From: Ruminococcus sp.
GTDB taxonomy: Bacteria; Bacillota; Clostridia; Oscillospirales; Ruminococcaceae
DNA: 35,090 nucleotides
Reading direction: 5' to 3'
NCBI GenBank assembly: GCA_017960805.1
Contig: JAGCYM010000002.1
Location: 1-35,090 of the forward strand
Numbering within the stretch: position 1 is the first letter of the stretch; every line of letters starts with the position of its first letter. The notes under the pieces were generated by a model. That model was not told where the DNA came from. It was given only the letters and a program-made list of their open reading frames with translations, and did no database searches. Shown here piece after piece: positions 21,820 to 32,943 of this stretch. The position numbers and the translations under genes were made by a program.

Positions 21820-21906
21820 TGGTGCCGGTGGCGGGACTTGAACCCGCACGGTATTGCTACCAACGGATTTTGAGTCCGTCACGTCTGCCAATTCCATCAC
21901 ACCGGC
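21820..21906 (-). tRNA. tRNA-Leu (anticodon CAA)
   Basis: The acceptor stem GCCGGTG/CACCGGC pairs fully. The anticodon arm is ACGGA-CTCAAAA-TCCGT with anticodon CAA (reads TTG). A long variable arm (TGGTAGCAATACCG) marks a class II tRNA, and the T arm is GCGGG-TTCAAGT-CCCGC. The CCA end is encoded (21820-21822). Confidence 0.95.
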
Positions 21907-24065: not shown

Positions 24066-25205
24066 TTATAATCGTCCGCGGAAATCCTCATATCCGAATT
24101 CGCGGAGAGTTTCAATATTTCCGTCACTCTTTAATAGTAATATTGATGGTAAGGGCATACCATTGAAAGTGTTGTTCTTTACCATTGAATAAATAGCCAT
24201 ATCCTCGAATATAAGCCTGTCACCGATATTAAGAGGGGAGTCGAAGGAATATATACCGATTGAGTCTCCTGCTAGACAGGTCTGTGAGCCAAGTCTGTAT
24301 GAAAAAGCCTTTTCATCTTTTTCTCCTGAGTTGCGAAGCGGAGGACGGTATGGCATCTCAAGTACATCAGGCATATGACATGCGGCAGATGTATCTAGAA
24401 TAGCTATAGGCATATCATTCTCAGTAAGATCCAGAACTTCTGTTACCAGGTATCCTGCGTTAAGAGCAATAGCTTCGCCTGGTTCCAGAAATACTTCAAG
24501 TCCGAATCTGTCCTGAAGCATCTTAATACAGCGTTCGAGTCTTGGAATATCATAGTCAGAGCGTGTAATGTGGTGACCTCCGCCCCGGTTGATCCATTCC
24601 ATTTTCTCTAGAACATCCCCGAACTTTTCTATGACCGCATCGAGTGTCTTTTCAAGGTCGTCGGAGTTCTGTTCACAAAGTGTATGCATGTGAAGACCTG
24701 TTACGCCTTCAAGATCTTCATCACGGAAATTCTTCCTTGTGATTCCGAGCCTTGATACAGGTGAGCACGGATCATATATCTCATGACCTTCCTGAGTTGA
24801 AAATTCAGGATTTATTCTGAGTCCTATCTTTTTTCCTGCTGAAAGAACACGGTCACGTAATTTGTCTAACTGTGAGAATGAATTGAATATTATATGTCCA
24901 CAGTAGGATACGATCTCATCAAATTCATTATCTCTGTAAGCAGCTGAAAAAACATGGTTTTCCTTGCCAATTTCCTCATATCCAAGACGTGCTTCATAGA
25001 GGCCGCTGCAGGCGGTCCCATCCAGGTATCGGCTGATTAATGGGTAAGTATGATAGCATGAAAAAGCTTTTTGCGCGAGAAGGATTTTGGCACCGGTTCT
25101 TTCACGGACTCCGTGCAGTATTTCCAGATTATGGATAAGCGCCGACTCATCCACAATATAGCAGGGAGTCGGCACATTATCAATTATATTATTAAGATCA
25201 ATCAT
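24066..25205 (-). CDS. nspC: Carboxynorspermidine/carboxyspermidine decarboxylase
   Basis: The 379-aa fold-III PLP enzyme removes the carboxyl group of carboxy(nor)spermidine to give (nor)spermidine. It has the N-terminal VPTPCYIVDESAL, the PLP lysine in ILLAQKAFSC (Lys46), RINPEFSTQEG, HTLCEQN, INRGGGHHITRSDYD and LEPGEAIALNAGYL, all typical of NspC rather than of LysA or SpeA. Length is typical. Its start overlaps the stop of the YbjQ-family gene by 4 bp (ATGA), so both are coupled. The dehydrogenase that makes its substrate is two genes upstream. Confidence 0.93.
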   Translation of the reverse strand: MIDLNNIIDNVPTPCYIVDESALIHNLEILHGVRERTGAKILLAQKAFSCYHTYPLISRYLDGTACSGLYEARLGYEEIGKENHVFSAAYRDNEFDEIVSYCGHIIFNSFSQLDKLRDRVLSAGKKIGLRINPEFSTQEGHEIYDPCSPVSRLGITRKNFRDEDLEGVTGLHMHTLCEQNSDDLEKTLDAVIEKFGDVLEKMEWINRGGGHHITRSDYDIPRLERCIKMLQDRFGLEVFLEPGEAIALNAGYLVTEVLDLTENDMPIAILDTSAACHMPDVLEMPYRPPLRNSGEKDEKAFSYRLGSQTCLAGDSIGIYSFDSPLNIGDRLIFEDMAIYSMVKNNTFNGMPLPSILLLKSDGNIETLREFGYEDFRGRL

Positions 25206-25513
25206 ATGAATTTAACGGCAGTGCCGTAAGCATATACATTTACGATACTGTTTGAACTCTCTGATATTGTGCAGCGGTATCCGACAACAGCGTCTGCATT
25301 TTCTTTGATAGCCTGCTGAATAAGATGTCCTCTGGCTATCTGGCATGCATGATTAATAAGTTCTGTATATGATTCAAGTTCACCGCCGGTCCCGAATGCG
25401 TTAAGAGCTCCAAGTCCCTTGGAGAAGTTTATAAGCTGTGTACATGCTCCCTCAACGAGACCGATATCTTCAATGTTTTTATTCATTATAGAATCAGTTG
25501 TAACAATAAGCAT
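25202..25513 (-). CDS. YbjQ/UPF0145-family protein
   Basis: The 103-aa protein matches the YbjQ family. Conserved features are an N-terminal LIVTTDSI, a central helix with ESYTELINHACQIARGHLI, then ADAVVGYRC and a C-terminal VYAYGTAVKF. These small pentamer-forming proteins have no established function and are sometimes called heavy-metal-binding. Here the gene is inserted between the two carboxyspermidine-pathway genes and translationally coupled to nspC. AAGGAG precedes the ATG by 8 nt. Confidence 0.88.
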   Translation of the reverse strand: MLIVTTDSIMNKNIEDIGLVEGACTQLINFSKGLGALNAFGTGGELESYTELINHACQIARGHLIQQAIKENADAVVGYRCTISESSNSIVNVYAYGTAVKFI

Positions 25514-25536
25514 AATTTTTAGCTCCTTGAATCAGA

Positions 25537-26739
25537 TTAGTCAACGAGAACAGGATTGAAGTCCTCTTCCCAAGGAAGGCCCCACTTGTTAAGTGCGTCC
25601 ATGAAGGGATCCGGATCGAATTCCTCTATGTTGTATACGCCTGCACCTTTCCATGTACCTGTCATTATAAGCATAGCACCGATCATAGCAGGAACGCCTG
25701 TTGTGTAAGAGATTGCCTGTGATCCTACCTCACGGTAGCATTCCTGGTGGTCACAGATATTATAAAGATAATAATTCTTGTCCTTGCCATCCTTCTTACC
25801 ACGGAAGATACATCCGATATTTGTCTTGCCGACAGTTCTCGGGCCGAGTGAAGCCGGATCAGGGAGTACAGCCTTCAGGAACTGAAGCGGTACAATTTCC
25901 TTACCTTCATACATGATAGGCTCAATAGATGTCATTCCTACGTTCTCAAGACACTTGAGGTGGGTAAGGTAACTCTGACCGAATGTCATGAAGAAACGGA
26001 TACGCTTGATACCTTTTATATTGAGTGCAAGAGACTCAAGCTCTTCATGGTGGAGAAGGTACATATCCTTTTCACCAACGCCCTTGAAGTTGTAAACGCG
26101 CTTGATCTCCATTGGTTCAGTTTCAACCCACTTGCCGTCCTCTATATAGCTTCCCTTTGCGGAAACCTCACGGATATTGATCTCAGGGTTGAAGTTTGTA
26201 GCGAAAGGATATCCGTGGTCACCGCCATTGCAGTCAAGGATATCAATATAGTTTATCTCATCGAACTGATGCTTCATTGCATAAGCGGAGAATACACCTG
26301 TTACGCCTGGATCGAATCCGCTTCCGAGAAGAGCTGTGATTCCTGCTTCCTTGAATCTCTCACGATAAGCCCACTGCCACTTGTACTCGAATTTTGCAGT
26401 GTCAAGAGGCTCATAGTTTGCTGTATCTACATAGTGAGTCTTTGTTGCGAGACATGCGTCCATTATTGTAAGATCCTGATAGGGGAGTGCAAGGTTTAGC
26501 ACTACATCCGGCTTGTAGCTGTTGATGAGAGCTATGAGCTCGTCAACATTGTCAGCGTTAACCTGTGCTGTTTCAATTACAGTTTTTGTAGTAGGCTGAA
26601 GCTTCTCCTTGAGTGCATCGCACTTTGACTTAGTGCGGCTTGCAATCATAATACCCTCAAAAACATCACTGTTCTGACAGCACTTGTGGATAGCAACGGA
26701 AGCAACTCCGCCGCAGCCGATGATCATACATTTTCCCAT
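25537..26739 (-). CDS. Carboxynorspermidine/carboxyspermidine dehydrogenase (saccharopine dehydrogenase family)
   Basis: The 400-aa NADPH-dependent enzyme condenses L-aspartate semialdehyde with putrescine (or diaminopropane) and reduces the imine to carboxyspermidine (or carboxynorspermidine). The N-terminal Rossmann motif is MIIGCGGVASVAIHKC. The family-typical DVVLNLALPYQDL, HYVDTANYEP, LLGSGFDPGVTGVFSAYA and DCNGGDHGYPFATNFNPEINIREV are all present. Length and closeness to nspC separate it from true saccharopine dehydrogenases. GGAGG precedes the ATG. YbjQ follows after 23 bp. Confidence 0.92.
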   Translation of the reverse strand: MGKCMIIGCGGVASVAIHKCCQNSDVFEGIMIASRTKSKCDALKEKLQPTTKTVIETAQVNADNVDELIALINSYKPDVVLNLALPYQDLTIMDACLATKTHYVDTANYEPLDTAKFEYKWQWAYRERFKEAGITALLGSGFDPGVTGVFSAYAMKHQFDEINYIDILDCNGGDHGYPFATNFNPEINIREVSAKGSYIEDGKWVETEPMEIKRVYNFKGVGEKDMYLLHHEELESLALNIKGIKRIRFFMTFGQSYLTHLKCLENVGMTSIEPIMYEGKEIVPLQFLKAVLPDPASLGPRTVGKTNIGCIFRGKKDGKDKNYYLYNICDHQECYREVGSQAISYTTGVPAMIGAMLIMTGTWKGAGVYNIEEFDPDPFMDALNKWGLPWEEDFNPVLVD

Positions 26740-28149: not shown

Positions 28150-29001
28150 TTATGATAGTGCAAGAAGCATTTCACGGATTATTTTGCATGCAACTGCAGT
28201 CGATACACCTGACTGATCATATGTAGGGCTTAATTCGTTAACATCACATCCGACTATATTGAGGCTTCTGCAGACAAGAGTTACAGCTTTTCTCAGTTCT
28301 TCAAATGTGACTCCTCCAGCCTCTGGTGTACCAGTACCGGGGAAGATCGAAGGATCAAGGACATCAAGGTCAAGAGTGAAGTATACGTTCTTCCCTTTCA
28401 GTTTTTCAACCGTCTCCTCAAGTCCCTCAAAGCTGAAATTATGCATTTGGGTATGTTTACCAGCGAAAACAAACTCATCGCGGTCTCCGCTCCTGATACC
28501 AAACTGGAAGATGTGATTGTCTCCTACGAGTTCATGACAACGCCTCAGTACACACGCATGTGATAACTGCTGTCCGAGATATTCGTCTCTTAGATCAGCG
28601 TGTGCATCAAAATGAACTATGTGAAGATCATCATATCTTTCTTTTACTGCTTTTACGGATCCGAGAGTTACAAGATGCTCTCCGCCGATCATAAATGGAA
28701 GTTTGCCATCATCCAGTATAGTATCGGATCTCTGTTTTATATCCGCTATAGTACGCTCTACACTTCCGAAGGGAAGTTCAAGGTCTCCGCTGTCGAAGTA
28801 GCTGTAATCAAGCATATCCTTATTCTGGTAAGGACTGTATGTTTCGATTCCGAAGCTTTCACTGCGAATTACAGGTGGAGCGAATCTTGTTCCGGGTCTG
28901 AAACTTGTGGTACCGTCAAAACCGGCTCCGAATAGAACTATCTTTGAGTCTTCATATTCTGCGTCACAAGCGATAAAGGTCTGTACGTTCTTATTCAACA
29001 T
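28150..29001 (-). CDS. speB: Agmatinase
   Basis: The 283-aa ureohydrolase splits agmatine into putrescine and urea. The binuclear manganese ligands are in GGEHLVTLGS, VHFDAHADLRDEY and FTLDLDVLDPS, with the family signature FPGTGTPEAGG after the last. Length fits SpeB. Its ATG lies inside the last codons of speE (11-bp overlap). With arginine decarboxylase upstream it provides the putrescine used by both spermidine routes in the cluster. The arginase alternative is less likely because arginine decarboxylase is in the same operon. Confidence 0.93.
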   Translation of the reverse strand: MLNKNVQTFIACDAEYEDSKIVLFGAGFDGTTSFRPGTRFAPPVIRSESFGIETYSPYQNKDMLDYSYFDSGDLELPFGSVERTIADIKQRSDTILDDGKLPFMIGGEHLVTLGSVKAVKERYDDLHIVHFDAHADLRDEYLGQQLSHACVLRRCHELVGDNHIFQFGIRSGDRDEFVFAGKHTQMHNFSFEGLEETVEKLKGKNVYFTLDLDVLDPSIFPGTGTPEAGGVTFEELRKAVTLVCRSLNIVGCDVNELSPTYDQSGVSTAVACKIIREMLLALS

Positions 29002-29842
29002 CTCTGAGCATCTCCTCTACGTAATTCGGTAATGCGAAAGCGCCAGTATGGAGATGTGTATTGTAGTACTTTGTCTTTATACCTATCATGCTCCATTTTG
29101 TGGGATTGTAATCACGTACAGGATGATACTTCTTTGATGCGAAACCGAACAGCCAGTGACCTGAAGGATAAGTCGGGATATGTGCCTGGTAGACACGACT
29201 GATCGGGAAGCTTTCAACTATTCGTTTGTGCGAGCGCTGCATAGCAGCGGCATCTTCGGCATAGAAAGGACTTTCATGCTGGTTTACCATGATTCCGTCT
29301 TCTTTTAGTGCCTTAAAGCAGCTTCCGTAAAACTCTTTTGTGAAGAGTCCTTCACCAGGTCCGAAAGGATCTGTTGAGTCTACTATAATTATATCGTACT
29401 TGTTCTCACAGCGACGAATGAACTTAACACCGTCTTCATAGTAGATATGAACACGTTCATCATCGAGACGACATGCAGTAGTGGGAAGGTATTTCTTGCT
29501 TACTTCCACAACAAGTTCATCTATTTCTACAAGGTCTATGCTCTCAACCGAACTGTATCGTGTGAGCTCGCGGACAACGCCGCCGTCACCAGCACCGATA
29601 ACAAGTATATTCTTAGGATCCGGATGAACAGCCATAGGAACATGAGTTATCATTTCGTGGTAGATGAATTCGTCTTTCTCTGTAAGCATCATGTAGCCGT
29701 CCAGAGTAAGAAAACGACCAAATTCTTTTGAATCAAAAACGTCTATACGCTGGAACTCGCTGTTCCCGCTGTATAACTGGTGATCTACCTTTATAGAGAA
29801 CTTTACATTCGGCGTATGACGTTCAGTGAACCATAATTCCAT
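28991..29842 (-). CDS. speE: Spermidine synthase
   Basis: The 283-aa aminopropyltransferase moves the aminopropyl group of decarboxylated SAM to putrescine. Motifs are HHVPMA-type MITHVPMAVHPDPK, the dcSAM site VIGAGDGGVVRELTRY, VDSTDPFGPGEGLFTKEFY with the catalytic Asp, and QHESPFY. The N-terminus MELWFTERHTPNVKFSIKV is typical. GGAGG precedes the ATG by 8 nt. It is located between the membrane protein and speB. Confidence 0.95.
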   Translation of the reverse strand: MELWFTERHTPNVKFSIKVDHQLYSGNSEFQRIDVFDSKEFGRFLTLDGYMMLTEKDEFIYHEMITHVPMAVHPDPKNILVIGAGDGGVVRELTRYSSVESIDLVEIDELVVEVSKKYLPTTACRLDDERVHIYYEDGVKFIRRCENKYDIIIVDSTDPFGPGEGLFTKEFYGSCFKALKEDGIMVNQHESPFYAEDAAAMQRSHKRIVESFPISRVYQAHIPTYPSGHWLFGFASKKYHPVRDYNPTKWSMIGIKTKYYNTHLHTGAFALPNYVEEMLRDVE

Positions 29843-29858
29843 TTTATGCCTCCATAGA

Positions 29859-30377
29859 TTATTCGGGTCTTCCTGCAGGAGGTCCGCCTGCAGGAGGTCC
29901 GTCTATTCCGTTCAGCTTCATAACAAGCTTGAGGAACAGGGGAGTGACAATTAATATTATAATGAATGCAATTACAAAGCTTAGTACAAGTGAGCCAAGG
30001 AACATTACAATGAATGGTGGGAGCTCTGCGTTCCCTCCGCTTGACTTCATAGCCATTTTCCGTGCTAGAATAATCATTGCAAGAGTGATTATAGGTGAAT
30101 AAATTATATCAGATATCAGAGCAGATATAATATTTGCTGGAAGACTGCGTTCTCTCAGCCCTAGAGCTTTGGTAATACCGCCTTCGACTTTTCTCATCGG
30201 AATGATAAATCCGATTATAAGACTTATCAGAGTGCTCAGAATGAAGCTTACGATGAAAGCAACTGGTTTGAATCCGCCTTTAGCGGTAAGATTACCAGTA
30301 AGAGATAGAAAGAAACTGAGAGTGATTCCCATGAGAATATTCATCTGAATACCGACTTTTTTCATTTTCTTTTCCAT
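29859..30377 (-). CDS. Membrane protein in the polyamine operon, DUF2798-like
   Basis: The 172-aa protein has four membrane segments (about residues 12-30, 38-58, 85-105, 125-150) in two similar halves, as in DUF2798 proteins. The C-terminal tail is GPPAGGPPAGRPE, encoded by a duplicated CCTGCAGGAGGTCCG. The frame could start at a GTG (30386), but that touches AAGGAG; the ATG at 30377 is correctly spaced. Strict operon position between speA and speE suggests a role in polyamine transport or sensing. No transporter motif is recognisable, so this is a guess from context. Confidence 0.75.
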   Translation of the reverse strand: MEKKMKKVGIQMNILMGITLSFFLSLTGNLTAKGGFKPVAFIVSFILSTLISLIIGFIIPMRKVEGGITKALGLRERSLPANIISALISDIIYSPIITLAMIILARKMAMKSSGGNAELPPFIVMFLGSLVLSFVIAFIIILIVTPLFLKLVMKLNGIDGPPAGGPPAGRPE

Positions 30378-30392
30378 ACACTGCACTCCTTA

Positions 30393-31841
30393 CTATTTTA
30401 ATACGTTGAGCCGTTCAATGTTGATATCCTCAGTACCAGTCATCTGACAGCCTTTTTCCTTAGCGTATTTGATGTATTCAATTATTTCGGGAGTAATAAG
30501 CTCTCCGGGAGCAAGGATCGGAATTCCAGGAGGATAGCACATTACAAATTCCGTGCAGACTTTTCCTGCTGATTCATCAAGAGGAAGTGATACTTTCTCC
30601 GCGTAGAATGCTTTTCTCGGAGCTTCAGTAACAACAGGTGATATATACTCGTGACTAAGCATGTCTGCTCCGGTTCTGCTGAAACGGCGTTTTATCTCTG
30701 ACATAGCGCTTATAAGTCGTTCTATGTCGCGTTTCCTGTCTCCAACAGATATGTATGCGAGGATATTGCCGATGTCACCGAATTCGATTTGAATATCATA
30801 TTCGTCACGAAGCAGGTCATATACCTCGATTCCTGCAAGTCCTATCGGTAGCGTGAATACGCTGAGTTTAGAAACATCGAAGTCAAATATACTGTCTCCG
30901 TTTATTAGTTCACGGGAATACGCATAGTAACCGCCGATATCATTTATCTCAGAACGAGCGTACTCAGCCATCTCAACTGTCTGGGCAAATATTTCCTTTC
31001 CTCCGAGTGCGAGTCTCTTCCTTGAAATATCAAGGCTTGACAGCAGGAGATATGATGCGCTTGTAGTTTGCGTCAGATTTATAACTTGACGCATGTAATC
31101 TGCGTTAACTTTTTCTCCCATGAGAAGGAATGAACTCTGTGTCAGGCTTCCACCTGATTTATGCATGCTGACTGAAGCTATATCAGCTCCGGCTGCCATT
31201 GCTGTTAACGGGAAGTTATCTCCGAAATAGAAGTGAGTGCCGTGAGCTTCATCAACAAGTACAAGCATACCATGAGCATGTGCAAGATCAGTAATTCGAT
31301 TGAGATCTGAACATATGCCATAATAGGTAGGATTGTTTACCATTATCGCTTTTGCGTCAGGATTATCCTTGATAGCCTGTTCAACCTGAGATACAGACAT
31401 ACCCAGAGCAATTCCAAGCTGTTTGTTTACATCCGGATTTACATATACCGGGACAGCTCCGGTTAGAATCAAAGCATTGATAGCACTTCGGTGAACATTT
31501 CTCGGCATTATGATCTTGTCGCCTTCCTTGCAGGCATACATGATCATGCTTTGAACTGCTGATGTAGTTCCGCCAACCATGAAAAAAGCGTTAGCGGCTC
31601 CGAACGCCTGAGCGGCAAGCATTTCTGCGTCTTTAATTACTGATACAGGGTGGCAGAGATTGTCGAGCGGCTTCATTGAGTTGACATCGACATTCATGCA
31701 GTCTTCACCGAGAAATTCGGTGAGCTCCATGTTTCCTCTTCCACGTTTGTGGCCGGGAACATCAAATGGTACGACTCTCATGCGTCTGAATTTGCGGAGA
31801 GCCTCATATATAGGAGCATTTACCTGAGAGAGCTCAGTCAT
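30393..31841 (-). CDS. speA: Arginine decarboxylase (Orn/Lys/Arg decarboxylase family, fold I)
   Basis: The 482-aa PLP enzyme resembles Bacillus SpeA and makes agmatine from arginine. The PLP lysine is Lys228 in SVSMHKSGGSLTQSS. Other family marks are VPFDVPGHKRGRG, FMVGGTTSAVQSMI, MVNNPTYYGICSDL and VLVDEAHGTHFYF. Length matches the short Firmicute form. The frame runs further upstream, but the ATG at 31841 overlaps the end of speD by 8 bp and is the natural start. Specificity for arginine rather than lysine or ornithine is inferred from the agmatinase gene in the same operon. Confidence 0.92.
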   Translation of the reverse strand: MTELSQVNAPIYEALRKFRRMRVVPFDVPGHKRGRGNMELTEFLGEDCMNVDVNSMKPLDNLCHPVSVIKDAEMLAAQAFGAANAFFMVGGTTSAVQSMIMYACKEGDKIIMPRNVHRSAINALILTGAVPVYVNPDVNKQLGIALGMSVSQVEQAIKDNPDAKAIMVNNPTYYGICSDLNRITDLAHAHGMLVLVDEAHGTHFYFGDNFPLTAMAAGADIASVSMHKSGGSLTQSSFLLMGEKVNADYMRQVINLTQTTSASYLLLSSLDISRKRLALGGKEIFAQTVEMAEYARSEINDIGGYYAYSRELINGDSIFDFDVSKLSVFTLPIGLAGIEVYDLLRDEYDIQIEFGDIGNILAYISVGDRKRDIERLISAMSEIKRRFSRTGADMLSHEYISPVVTEAPRKAFYAEKVSLPLDESAGKVCTEFVMCYPPGIPILAPGELITPEIIEYIKYAKEKGCQMTGTEDINIERLNVLK

Positions 31842-32604
31842 TTCCGTACACGTTCCTTCCGCTGAATATTTCAATCATTTCTTTCCTCAGAGCATTTGTT
31901 ATATCAAGTCTGCTTCTGGGAGGAAGCTCATGGACATCCGTATTGAAGAGATAGTTCTGAAGAATGATGTCCTTGATAAGCATTTTAGTATGGAACATAT
32001 TTGCCTGATAAACATTTATGTCAACTGCATCATATTTATCAAGTATGGATGTGTCGATATAGTTCTGGATAGATGTTATATCATGGTCTATGAATAATTT
32101 TTCTCCATCGAGGTTACGCGTAAAACCACGAACACGATAATCCATTGTGATTATATCCGAGTCAAAGCTTCCAATAAGATAGTCAAGTGCGGTAAGAGGT
32201 GTGATTTTACCGCAGGTAGCAACATCTATATCTACACGGAATGTTGCAATACTTGTGTCGGGGTGATACTCGGGGTAAGTGTGAACAGTTACATGACTCT
32301 TGTCAAGATGAGCGACGATTTCGTTTCCGCCTGCAGGTACCATTGTATCGTCAGCTATCAGGAATGTTGCGGATGCACCCTGAGGGTCATAATCCTGTCG
32401 GGATACACTTAGTACCTGAGCACCTATCATCTCGGTGAGGTGAGTCATGATGTCAGTGATTCGTTCAGAGTTGTACTGCTCATCAACATATGCAATATAT
32501 TCAAGCTGGGCCTTTGGAGTCTTTGCGTAACACACATCATATATATTGAAACTGAGCGATTTTGTAAGGTTATTGAAACCGTAAAGCTTAAGTTTGTTTT
32601 CCAT
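31834..32604 (-). CDS. speD: S-adenosylmethionine decarboxylase proenzyme (E. coli SpeD type)
   Basis: The 256-aa pyruvoyl enzyme supplies decarboxylated SAM to SpeE. Self-cleavage is expected at HLDKSHVTVHTYPE, before Ser103, which becomes the pyruvoyl group. VDIDVATCGKITPLTALDYL and YRVRGFTRNLDGEK are as in the long gamma-proteobacterial-type SpeD. The frame extends upstream to 32667 through the terminator stem, but GAGGTG and the ATG at 32604 fix the real start. It is the first gene of the polyamine operon and is preceded by a long structured leader with an intrinsic terminator. Confidence 0.93.
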   Translation of the reverse strand: MENKLKLYGFNNLTKSLSFNIYDVCYAKTPKAQLEYIAYVDEQYNSERITDIMTHLTEMIGAQVLSVSRQDYDPQGASATFLIADDTMVPAGGNEIVAHLDKSHVTVHTYPEYHPDTSIATFRVDIDVATCGKITPLTALDYLIGSFDSDIITMDYRVRGFTRNLDGEKLFIDHDITSIQNYIDTSILDKYDAVDINVYQANMFHTKMLIKDIILQNYLFNTDVHELPPRSRLDITNALRKEMIEIFSGRNVYGND

Positions 32605-32908
32605 AATACACACCTCAAAAAATAAAAAACGTACAGACTGATCAGCCTGTACGTGTAAGGATAGCACTGCGATAGCGCGGCGTGACTTCCAAGTGGTTTC
32701 AGAGAGTCTATATAAGCAAAGATACCTTTTACTACTCTTATTGACCTTTCACAAGCTGAGAACTTATAAAAACAATAAGGCAACAGAAGTTGCCAGCCGA
32801 ATTGGAAATCCGGCGGTCGGCATTTGACCCGCTGTCCGTATGGCGTTTACCCCCGTTTGGCGGGAGTGGTCAAAGATCTTGCTCTGAAACCGAAGCTTCG
32901 CTGCAATT
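32605..32908 (-). promoter_or_regulatory. Structured speD leader, candidate riboswitch/attenuator
   Basis: About 300 nt separate the promoter from speD. Read as minus-strand RNA, UUUGACC (32874-32868) can pair with GGUCAAA (32829-32823) or instead with GGUCAA (32746-32741). UGCC/GGCA stems compete in the same way: GGCAAC/GUUGCC (positions 32779-32794) excludes TGCC(32791-32794)/GGCA(32819-32822). Small stems CCCG/CGGG and GCCG/CGGC lie inside. UCAGCUUGU (32759-32751) can pair, with one G-U, with ACAGGCUGA, the 5' arm of the terminator, and so act as an antiterminator. I could not match it to a riboswitch class I know. Confidence 0.6.
32617..32654 (-). terminator. Leader terminator directly before the speD ribosome site
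   Basis: A 13-bp stem with one mismatch (ACGTACAGGCTGA/TCAGTCTGTACGT) is followed by TTTTTTATTTTTT and then at once GAGGTG of speD. A terminator placed between promoter and first gene implies attenuation. Confidence 0.85.
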
Positions 32909-32914
32909 TTATTT

Positions 32915-32943
32915 ATTTTACCATAAAATGAGTTCTTTGTCAA
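32915..32943 (-). promoter_or_regulatory. Promoter of the polyamine operon
   Basis: On the minus strand TTGACA (32943-32938), a 17-bp spacer and TAAAAT (32920-32915) form a strong sigma-A promoter. The start point would be near 32908. Confidence 0.85.

Follow-up and report, generated by a model that had tools for sequence, protein, structure and literature searches.

In the open-access literature, as far as its available parts go, the only validated spermidine riboswitch class found was a SAM-I variant with 13 reported examples, associated with ldcC, speB, speD, and speE and shown to cause spermidine-dependent termination (Salvail et al. 2023, PMC10853860). The leader analyzed here resembles that class in that it would control polyamine genes by turning transcription OFF through a terminator and an antiterminator. 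In contrast to the four-stem SAM-I fold, it has other helices and other conserved bases, and no SAM-family match was obtained in it at E up to 5. Two further motifs, speF (PMC11477304) and odc1 (PMC8632094), are likewise leader motifs before polyamine-synthesis genes according to the available parts of the reports. The leader gave no Rfam match to the speF family, and odc1 is described differently, as a single stem that carries a large loop together with a pseudoknot, under the label uORF-25-1. Tandem and modular riboswitches also have two conserved RNA domains per leader; unlike in those, one of the two domains described below lies inside the closing helices of the other and is optional.

The gene SP0916, which follows the pneumococcal founder of Rfam family RF02440, is presumably a lysine decarboxylase. 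In the available part of one paper, cadA is given as a putative lysine decarboxylase and the tag SP0916 was not found (PMC6727871). The available parts of other reports describe the pneumococcal RNA as F59, a small RNA of 82 nt between SP0915 and SP0916 (PMC3395615), as SN20, the same RNA with a length of 318 nt, a promoter, and a Rho-independent terminator just before SP0916 (PMC2887815), and as srn235/Spd_sr49 at 869478-869804 (PMC12323649); a review table files it under "Lung" (PMC4387999). A 318-nt RNA with a promoter and a terminator is as expected of an attenuated leader. SN20 was guessed to be an FMN switch from a shared sequence motif (PMC2887815), and no mechanism besides this guess was seen in the available parts of the open-access literature on the pneumococcal RNA. 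Rfam models 54 nt as an sRNA, whereas in the present locus they make up a single, optional domain of a longer leader RNA. The name ldcC RNA for this family is said to come from Weinberg et al. 2017, a work that may show more of the element than the 54 nt in Rfam. The covered part of the open-access literature contained no description of the scaffold, of the optional domain as such, of a cis-regulatory reading, or of a covarying antiterminator.

The window, that is, the whole stretch of DNA analyzed, comprises 35,090 nt of a Ruminococcus sp. contig. The leader of its polyamine operon is located on the minus strand between the promoter and the speD start at 32604 (Table 1). The promoter and the terminator whose T run abuts the speD ribosome site, both claimed in an earlier note on this DNA, were present. 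The window contained 15 promoter-like sites (9.4, sd 3.1, in shuffles) and three terminator-like sites (2.2, sd 1.4), counts that are not beyond chance by themselves; the two elements are credible because of their position and conservation, not their number. The hairpin at 32794-32779 was rejected as a first terminator, since it is the conserved internal stem P3, as indicated by the covariation described below. Downstream of the leader, other ORFs are interspersed among the minus-strand polyamine genes. The start codon of the Orn/Lys/Arg decarboxylase is uncertain and its listed ORF overlaps speD; a homologue at the locus L227 matches PF01276. Both spermidine routes occur in one region, with speD/speE at 28991-32604 and the carboxynorspermidine synthase family/nspC at 24066-26739, and a tRNA gene is found at 21823-21906 of the minus strand.

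Table 1 Features of the leader and of the polyamine genes in the window.
Feature	Position	Strand	Basis or remark
Promoter TTGACA (32943-32938), 17 nt, TAAAAT (32920-32915)	32915..32943	-	consensus score 11/12, TG ahead of -10
Whole structured RNA element, closed by P1	32695..32891	-	GGUUUCAGAG (32891-32882) with CUCUGAAACC (32704-32695), 10/10 pairs
P2 5' strand CAAGAU	32876..32881	-	read from sequence; can pair with AUCUUUG 32723-32717 (one bulged U)
Optional domain, RF02440 SpF59_sRNA (ldcC RNA): stem P1m UGACC/GGUCA, hairpins P2m and P3m	32817..32872	-	Rfam
Conserved 10-nt loop CAUACGGACA of P3m	32833..32842	-	covariation; outer stem pair C-G in the window
Scaffold domain, match to covariance model R1	32703..32806	-	70.6 bits, E 4.9e-13; this copy without hairpins P5 and P7
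P3 hairpin GGCAAC/GUUGCC	32779..32794	-	terminator-like but conserved stem; in 28 of 79 sequences both bases of one pair differ
P4 5' strand UUAUUG	32773..32778	-	pairs with CAAUAA 32743-32738; 99.5% paired in alignment A1
P6 5' strand UUUUAUAAGU	32762..32771	-	10 pairs with 32747-32756; 97.1% of cells paired over 79 sequences
Switching strand UCAGCUUGUGAAA	32747..32759	-	P6 3' strand (32756-32747) or antiterminator (32759-32750 with 32651-32642)
Near-invariant core GAGUAGUAAAAG	32726..32737	-	alignments; could form hairpin P9
Intrinsic terminator: stem 32654-32629 (11 pairs), then T run TTTTTTATTTT	32619..32654	-	terminator search
speD ribosome site GAGGUG	32611..32616	-	sequence; terminator T run ends immediately 5' of the site
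speD, S-adenosylmethionine decarboxylase	31834..32604	-	TIGR03331, 392 bits, cut-off 255.8
Orn/Lys/Arg decarboxylase family	30393..31874	-	best NCBIfam matches lysine/arginine/ornithine decarboxylases, all below cut-off
speE, spermidine synthase	28991..29842	-	TIGR00417
speB, agmatinase	28150..29001	-	TIGR01230
Carboxynorspermidine synthase family	25537..26739	-	NF043000, 409 bits, below cut-off 800
nspC, carboxynorspermidine decarboxylase	24066..25205	-	TIGR01047, 482 bits, cut-off 409

RF02440 gave the sole gathering-level Rfam match in the leader, and this match was full-length (56.3 bits against a cut-off of 37.2; model positions 1-54 of 54 over 56 nt). Nothing else credible was obtained from Rfam at E up to 5 between 32580 and 32960. 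The lines for InvR, mir-3149, sn3060, and RsaF in the Rfam scans were far below cut-off and were discarded, and membership in the SAM-I, guanidine, and T-box families was rejected, as none of them matched the leader at E up to 5; the absence of SAM-I and guanidine-I that the earlier note had read by eye was thereby borne out. Its description of the leader as undescribed was wrong in part: 32817-32872 belongs to RF02440, whereas the scaffold (32703-32806 in the window) matches no family in Rfam 15. The kind of element, a riboswitch or attenuator, is known and one of its domains is in Rfam, with the scaffold absent from it. For the scaffold in 17 loci without a recognized 14-nt core, no Rfam family reached its cut-off, and in one of them a search at E up to 1 gave nothing but RsaF, which scored 19.8 bits (cut-off 60) and lay on the opposite strand.

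Reading of the RF02440 loci indicated that conservation extends more than 100 nt past RF02440, across families. The scaffold was located downstream in all 84 of these loci (L001-L084), 79 by script and five with a diverged core by eye. In the window, the RF02440 domain sits between P2 and P3 of the scaffold; in relatives of the same genus that RF02440 does not match, its place is taken, as read by eye, by a plain hairpin or some other sequence. The strands of P1, allowing up to two mismatches each, were recovered in 38 loci having the core, 13 of which were aligned. Judged from these comparisons, RF02440 covers one optional domain of a larger RNA at about 32695-32891. This domain may tune the affinity of the RNA, sense a second ligand, or play a structural role.

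Further loci were collected with an exact 18-mer from the second half of the RNA (L085-L202, in which these 18 bases are conserved by construction) and, for 26 genomes, with R1, a covariance model of the scaffold with 154 positions. The 18-mer scan yielded at least 118 loci, and its carriers among the matches listed included Ruminococcus flavefaciens FD-1, Faecalibacterium prausnitzii, Flavonifractor, Gemmiger, Mediterraneibacter, Neglectibacter timonensis, Bacillus sp. V3B, and Perspicuibacillus. Among these listed matches, the 14-nt core was unrecognized in 44, of which 30 have at least 330 nt upstream (L123 aside), and 24 loci picked by eye have the scaffold without a recognizable RF02440 domain. 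An unrecognized core overstates true absence, because diverged domains (e.g., L061, L064, L067, L080, and L082) and contigs beginning too close are included. Two matches, the 18-mer locus L123 and the sole match in viral contigs (L255), were discarded as chance matches with no scaffold around them; unrelated ORFs follow L123, which was excluded from the terminator and gene counts. R1 matched 25 of 398 genomes across the phylum; in the set formed by the own genome and its relatives, it matched 87 of 149. RF02440 matched 18 and 67 genomes of these two sets, respectively. All RF02440-positive genomes were R1-positive, and R1 alone matched a further 26, at least one of which (G107) seemingly keeps a diverged RF02440 remnant (by eye). 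Five of the R1-only members (L223-L227) scored low (E 4.3e-10 to 3.5e-4), so that gene context is a useful check of R1. Two of them with very diverged scaffolds (L226 and L227) retain CUUGUGAA, GAG..GUAAAAG, and the UUACU partner, and are useful for locating the true minimal core.

The R1 match of the window is the only one in its own genome, and a relative assembly (G006) has two leaders, L048 on C4 and L012 on C58, one of them apparently identical to that of the window over the stretch shown; the stated contamination of this assembly is 6%, so the two leaders may reflect a mixed bin. A Salinivirgaceae MAG (L096, JAEEPS010000094.1) has the scaffold with clusters of decarboxylase, speE, and speB, through either horizontal transfer or wrong binning. 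In another locus (L013), the scaffold is broken in its P5 region, past the P3 hairpin, by an insert that looks unrelated; situated some 60-200 nt downstream from the RF02440 core, it may be a small mobile element within a loop of the RNA.

The helices of the scaffold were examined in alignment A1, which was built with MAFFT without structure information. From 202 loci, many of them near-duplicates, 33 were dropped because the P4 strand was unseen by the script (including the window, L001, and close relatives, in which P5 is missing) and 16 more because an end was missing; the 153 kept gave 112 non-redundant loci, 79 of which, of typical length and with two more excluded by name, form A1 (L001-L084 supply 21 of its rows, the 18-mer loci the other 58). 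The copy of the window and those of its close relatives, which lack P5 and P7, are therefore not part of A1. Over 33 pairs, 92.2% of the cells were paired, against 38-49% in slid controls, and 14 pairs changed on both sides. Cells changed on both sides numbered 83, against 27.4 in shuffles, and none of 500 shuffles was as high on any of five measures; kinship of the loci inflates such shuffle tests. The compensation came from P3 (six pairs), P5 (three), P7 (four, this helix being paired in just 77.9% of the cells), and P6 (one of ten). P4 contributed none, being almost invariant, and for 58 of the 79 rows the search pattern itself had dictated its 3' side. As P4, P6, and the core barely vary, pairing there rests on complementarity. 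For P2, none of 10,000 permutations reached the matched complementarity over 80 loci, nor over the 56 of them with the core, whereas 296 of 10,000 did so over 24 loci without a recognized core, a weak support. The candidate hairpin P9, in which the core pairs with UUGCU (32719-32715) and ACUC (32707-32704), is nearly invariant and overlaps P2.

The RF02440 domain also covaries. In alignment A2, which covers 65 of 76 listed loci, 93.4% of the cells were paired and 134 cells changed on both sides, compared with 40.0 in shuffles (left out were L056, L063, L068, L130, L136, L141, L156, L162, L170, L190, and L194, in some of which the 5' part is atypical; the script had already removed L031 and L193). 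The hairpin P3m is absent from the Rfam structure line of RF02440, yet its stem covaries: over 153 loci, its outer pair was G-C in 116, C-G in 14, A-U in eight, G-U in one, and unpaired in 14, and was thus standard in 139. The leader accordingly has what a conserved aptamer-like RNA has, a structure with covarying helices. The earlier note had also pointed to UUUGACC (32874-32868) as a strand that alternates between two GGUCAA copies. Both copies match in the window, whereas the alternation is not conserved over 65 loci: the end base of UUUGACC changes with the first copy (U-A 35, G-C 16, C-G 9, others 5), and the second copy shows A in every one of the 65 loci (32 of them selected with a pattern that fixed this copy, the other 33 found via RF02440 and free of that constraint). 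The alternation was therefore ruled out as a conserved device.

The other proposed alternation, a 9-bp segment able to pair with the terminator arm, held except in its length: positions 32759-32750 can form 10 pairs, one end pair being G-U, with 32642-32651 in the 5' arm of the terminator, and the strand covaries with the terminator. A terminator-like hairpin was detected in 139 of 193 assessable listed loci (eight further loci being too short), and since the simple finder saw none in the other 54, some members may act differently. The strand tested was the 19-nt P8/P6 strand ending three bases before GGUCAAUAA, and the arm was taken from this finder. Over 48 non-redundant loci, the duplex of the strand with its own arm had a mean of -11.81 kcal/mol, compared with -9.00 (sd 0.33, minimum -10.47) for permuted arms and -6.25 kcal/mol when the own arms were shuffled. 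None of 10,000 permutations was as low as the own-arm mean, in a set chosen for low similarity from which permutation does not fully remove relatedness. At most eight other arms beat the own arm in 24 of the 48 loci, and nine to 45 did so in the other 24. When 14-nt windows were moved along the RNA (32-33 loci), the own-minus-other difference was -1.3 to -2.7 at the switching strand alone and -0.8 to +0.4 elsewhere. The strand and the terminator arm thus changed in concert, though P6 is nearly fixed. A switch-like transcription attenuator for the polyamine operon, as the earlier note had proposed, is thus supported by its retention in relatives and by this covariation.

Because the antiterminator excludes both P6 and the terminator, the folded scaffold would correspond to the OFF state. 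The leader thus has the mutually exclusive expression platform of a riboswitch; equilibrium energies do not favor the antiterminator. In a plain energy model of the full window leader, the antiterminator state was at -83.7 and the terminated state at -99.1 (15 kcal/mol apart), and for the nascent RNA it was at -76.3 compared with -83.8 and -86.0 (8-10 kcal/mol higher). The minimum-energy fold of the window leader is without P2 and P4 and has UUUGACC paired to the second GGUCAA. The model cannot hold P1 and the antiterminator together, which would be a pseudoknot. As equilibrium strongly favors the terminated form, switching would be kinetic or would need the pseudoknotted form.

Gene context was assessed in 201 loci (found via RF02440 or among the 18-mer matches listed, without L123), four of which had too little sequence downstream, leaving 197. 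The next gene, taken as the first among ten polyamine proteins searched for, was speD in 107 of the listed loci, a decarboxylase in 50, pot in 25, a carboxynorspermidine synthase in 11, and none in four. A polyamine gene therefore follows in 193 of 197 listed loci (108 of 110 when non-redundant), and all 193 genes begin no more than 346 nt from a position 40 nt past the start of GGUCAAUAA. In the R1-only genomes, speD or a decarboxylase was downstream in 26 of 26, so that the association with one pathway was consistent in both sets. The uptake operons potABCD are thus preceded by the same RNA. All four gene types occurred both with the core (152 listed loci: speD 92, decarboxylase 28, pot 19, carboxynorspermidine synthase 10, none three) and with the core unrecognized (45 listed loci: 15, 22, six, one, and one, respectively); speD seemed to have a larger share where the core was recognized, perhaps owing to the many Ruminococcus loci. 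In the four exceptions, the RNA is followed by peptidases that look secreted instead of by polyamine genes, namely M28-family peptidases (L031:1845-3053, L138:239-2275, and L190:2145-4277) and a C39/C70-like protein (L162:4764-5513). A link between polyamine status and extracellular protein breakdown is possible at these loci.

Judged from the sequence-level architecture, the covariation of the helices, the exclusive pairing of P6 and the antiterminator, the terminator, and the gene set, the leader is probably an OFF riboswitch that acts in cis by terminating transcription and belongs to a large class serving polyamine genes of Bacillota, with a polyamine sensed directly. The scaffold would fold through the closing stems P1 and P2, P3, P4, P6, and the near-invariant core GGUCAAUAAGAGUAGUAAAAG..UUUGCUAUAUAGACUCU. 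While the scaffold is stable, P6 would hold CAGCUUGUGAAA, the terminator would form, and the operon would be off; when it is unstable, CAGCUUGUGAAA would pair with the 5' arm of the terminator as the antiterminator and polymerase would read into speD. A polyamine would stabilize the scaffold directly. Genes for both synthesis and uptake make a polyamine end product the likelier ligand and, together with the different spermidine routes, fit feedback OFF control by a polyamine. By this gene set, SAM, arginine, and agmatine are less likely ligands than an end product, for instance spermidine, and spermidine is the most likely of all by likeness to the SAM-I-variant class. More tentatively, the scaffold could be the sensing core of a new widespread polyamine riboswitch into which RF02440 has been repeatedly inserted, and from which it has been lost, as a second ligand-binding domain, giving single- and dual-sensor versions within a genus; we regard this as possible but doubtful.

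The same attenuator could work with no small molecule, its scaffold being sensed by a protein (a repressor or an antiterminator) or by a trans RNA. The polyamine is inferred, and large RNAs with near-invariant cores can generally be protein targets. The element precedes the same pathway in Clostridia and in some records named as Bacilli (Bacillus sp. V3B and Perspicuibacillus), as is the case for metabolite riboswitches, and the long near-invariant core with a separable conserved domain also speaks for a metabolite, although a widespread protein would still be compatible; we consider protein or trans-RNA sensing rather unlikely. It seems quite improbable that the ligand is a precursor or by-product (SAM, decarboxy-SAM, MTA, arginine, lysine, or agmatine). 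The products of speD, speE, and the decarboxylase do handle such compounds, as is generally known of their reactions, but pot genes (25 of 197 listed loci) and the carboxynorspermidine route (11 of 197) leave the polyamine as the common denominator. To our knowledge, pot uptake and carboxynorspermidine-route operons use no SAM, and their position under the same RNA argues against SAM as the ligand.

A trans-acting small RNA, as which Rfam (type 'Gene; sRNA') and the pneumococcal catalogues in their available parts (PMC3395615, PMC4387999, and PMC12323649) file the RNA, is very unlikely, since polyamine genes follow it immediately in 193 of 197 listed loci and its terminator and antiterminator covary, which argues for cis action; a terminated leader would itself appear as a short RNA. 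Polyamine control by ribosome-stalling leader peptides exists elsewhere, as in speFL of E. coli according to the available part of the report (PMC10319736), yet such an attenuator is hardly credible for the present leader, in which the distance between the P4 strands takes values such as 78, 79, 80, 81, 82, and 83 with no steps of three and conservation tracks helices and loops.

If the reading as a polyamine-sensing riboswitch is true, it would account for an Rfam family that is classed as a small RNA. The switching strand makes the mechanism directly testable, and the presence or absence of the extra domain within one genus provides natural pairs for what a modular RNA domain adds. Polyamines bind RNA everywhere. 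A second, commoner, and structurally unrelated class of polyamine riboswitch would show how RNA achieves polyamine specificity.
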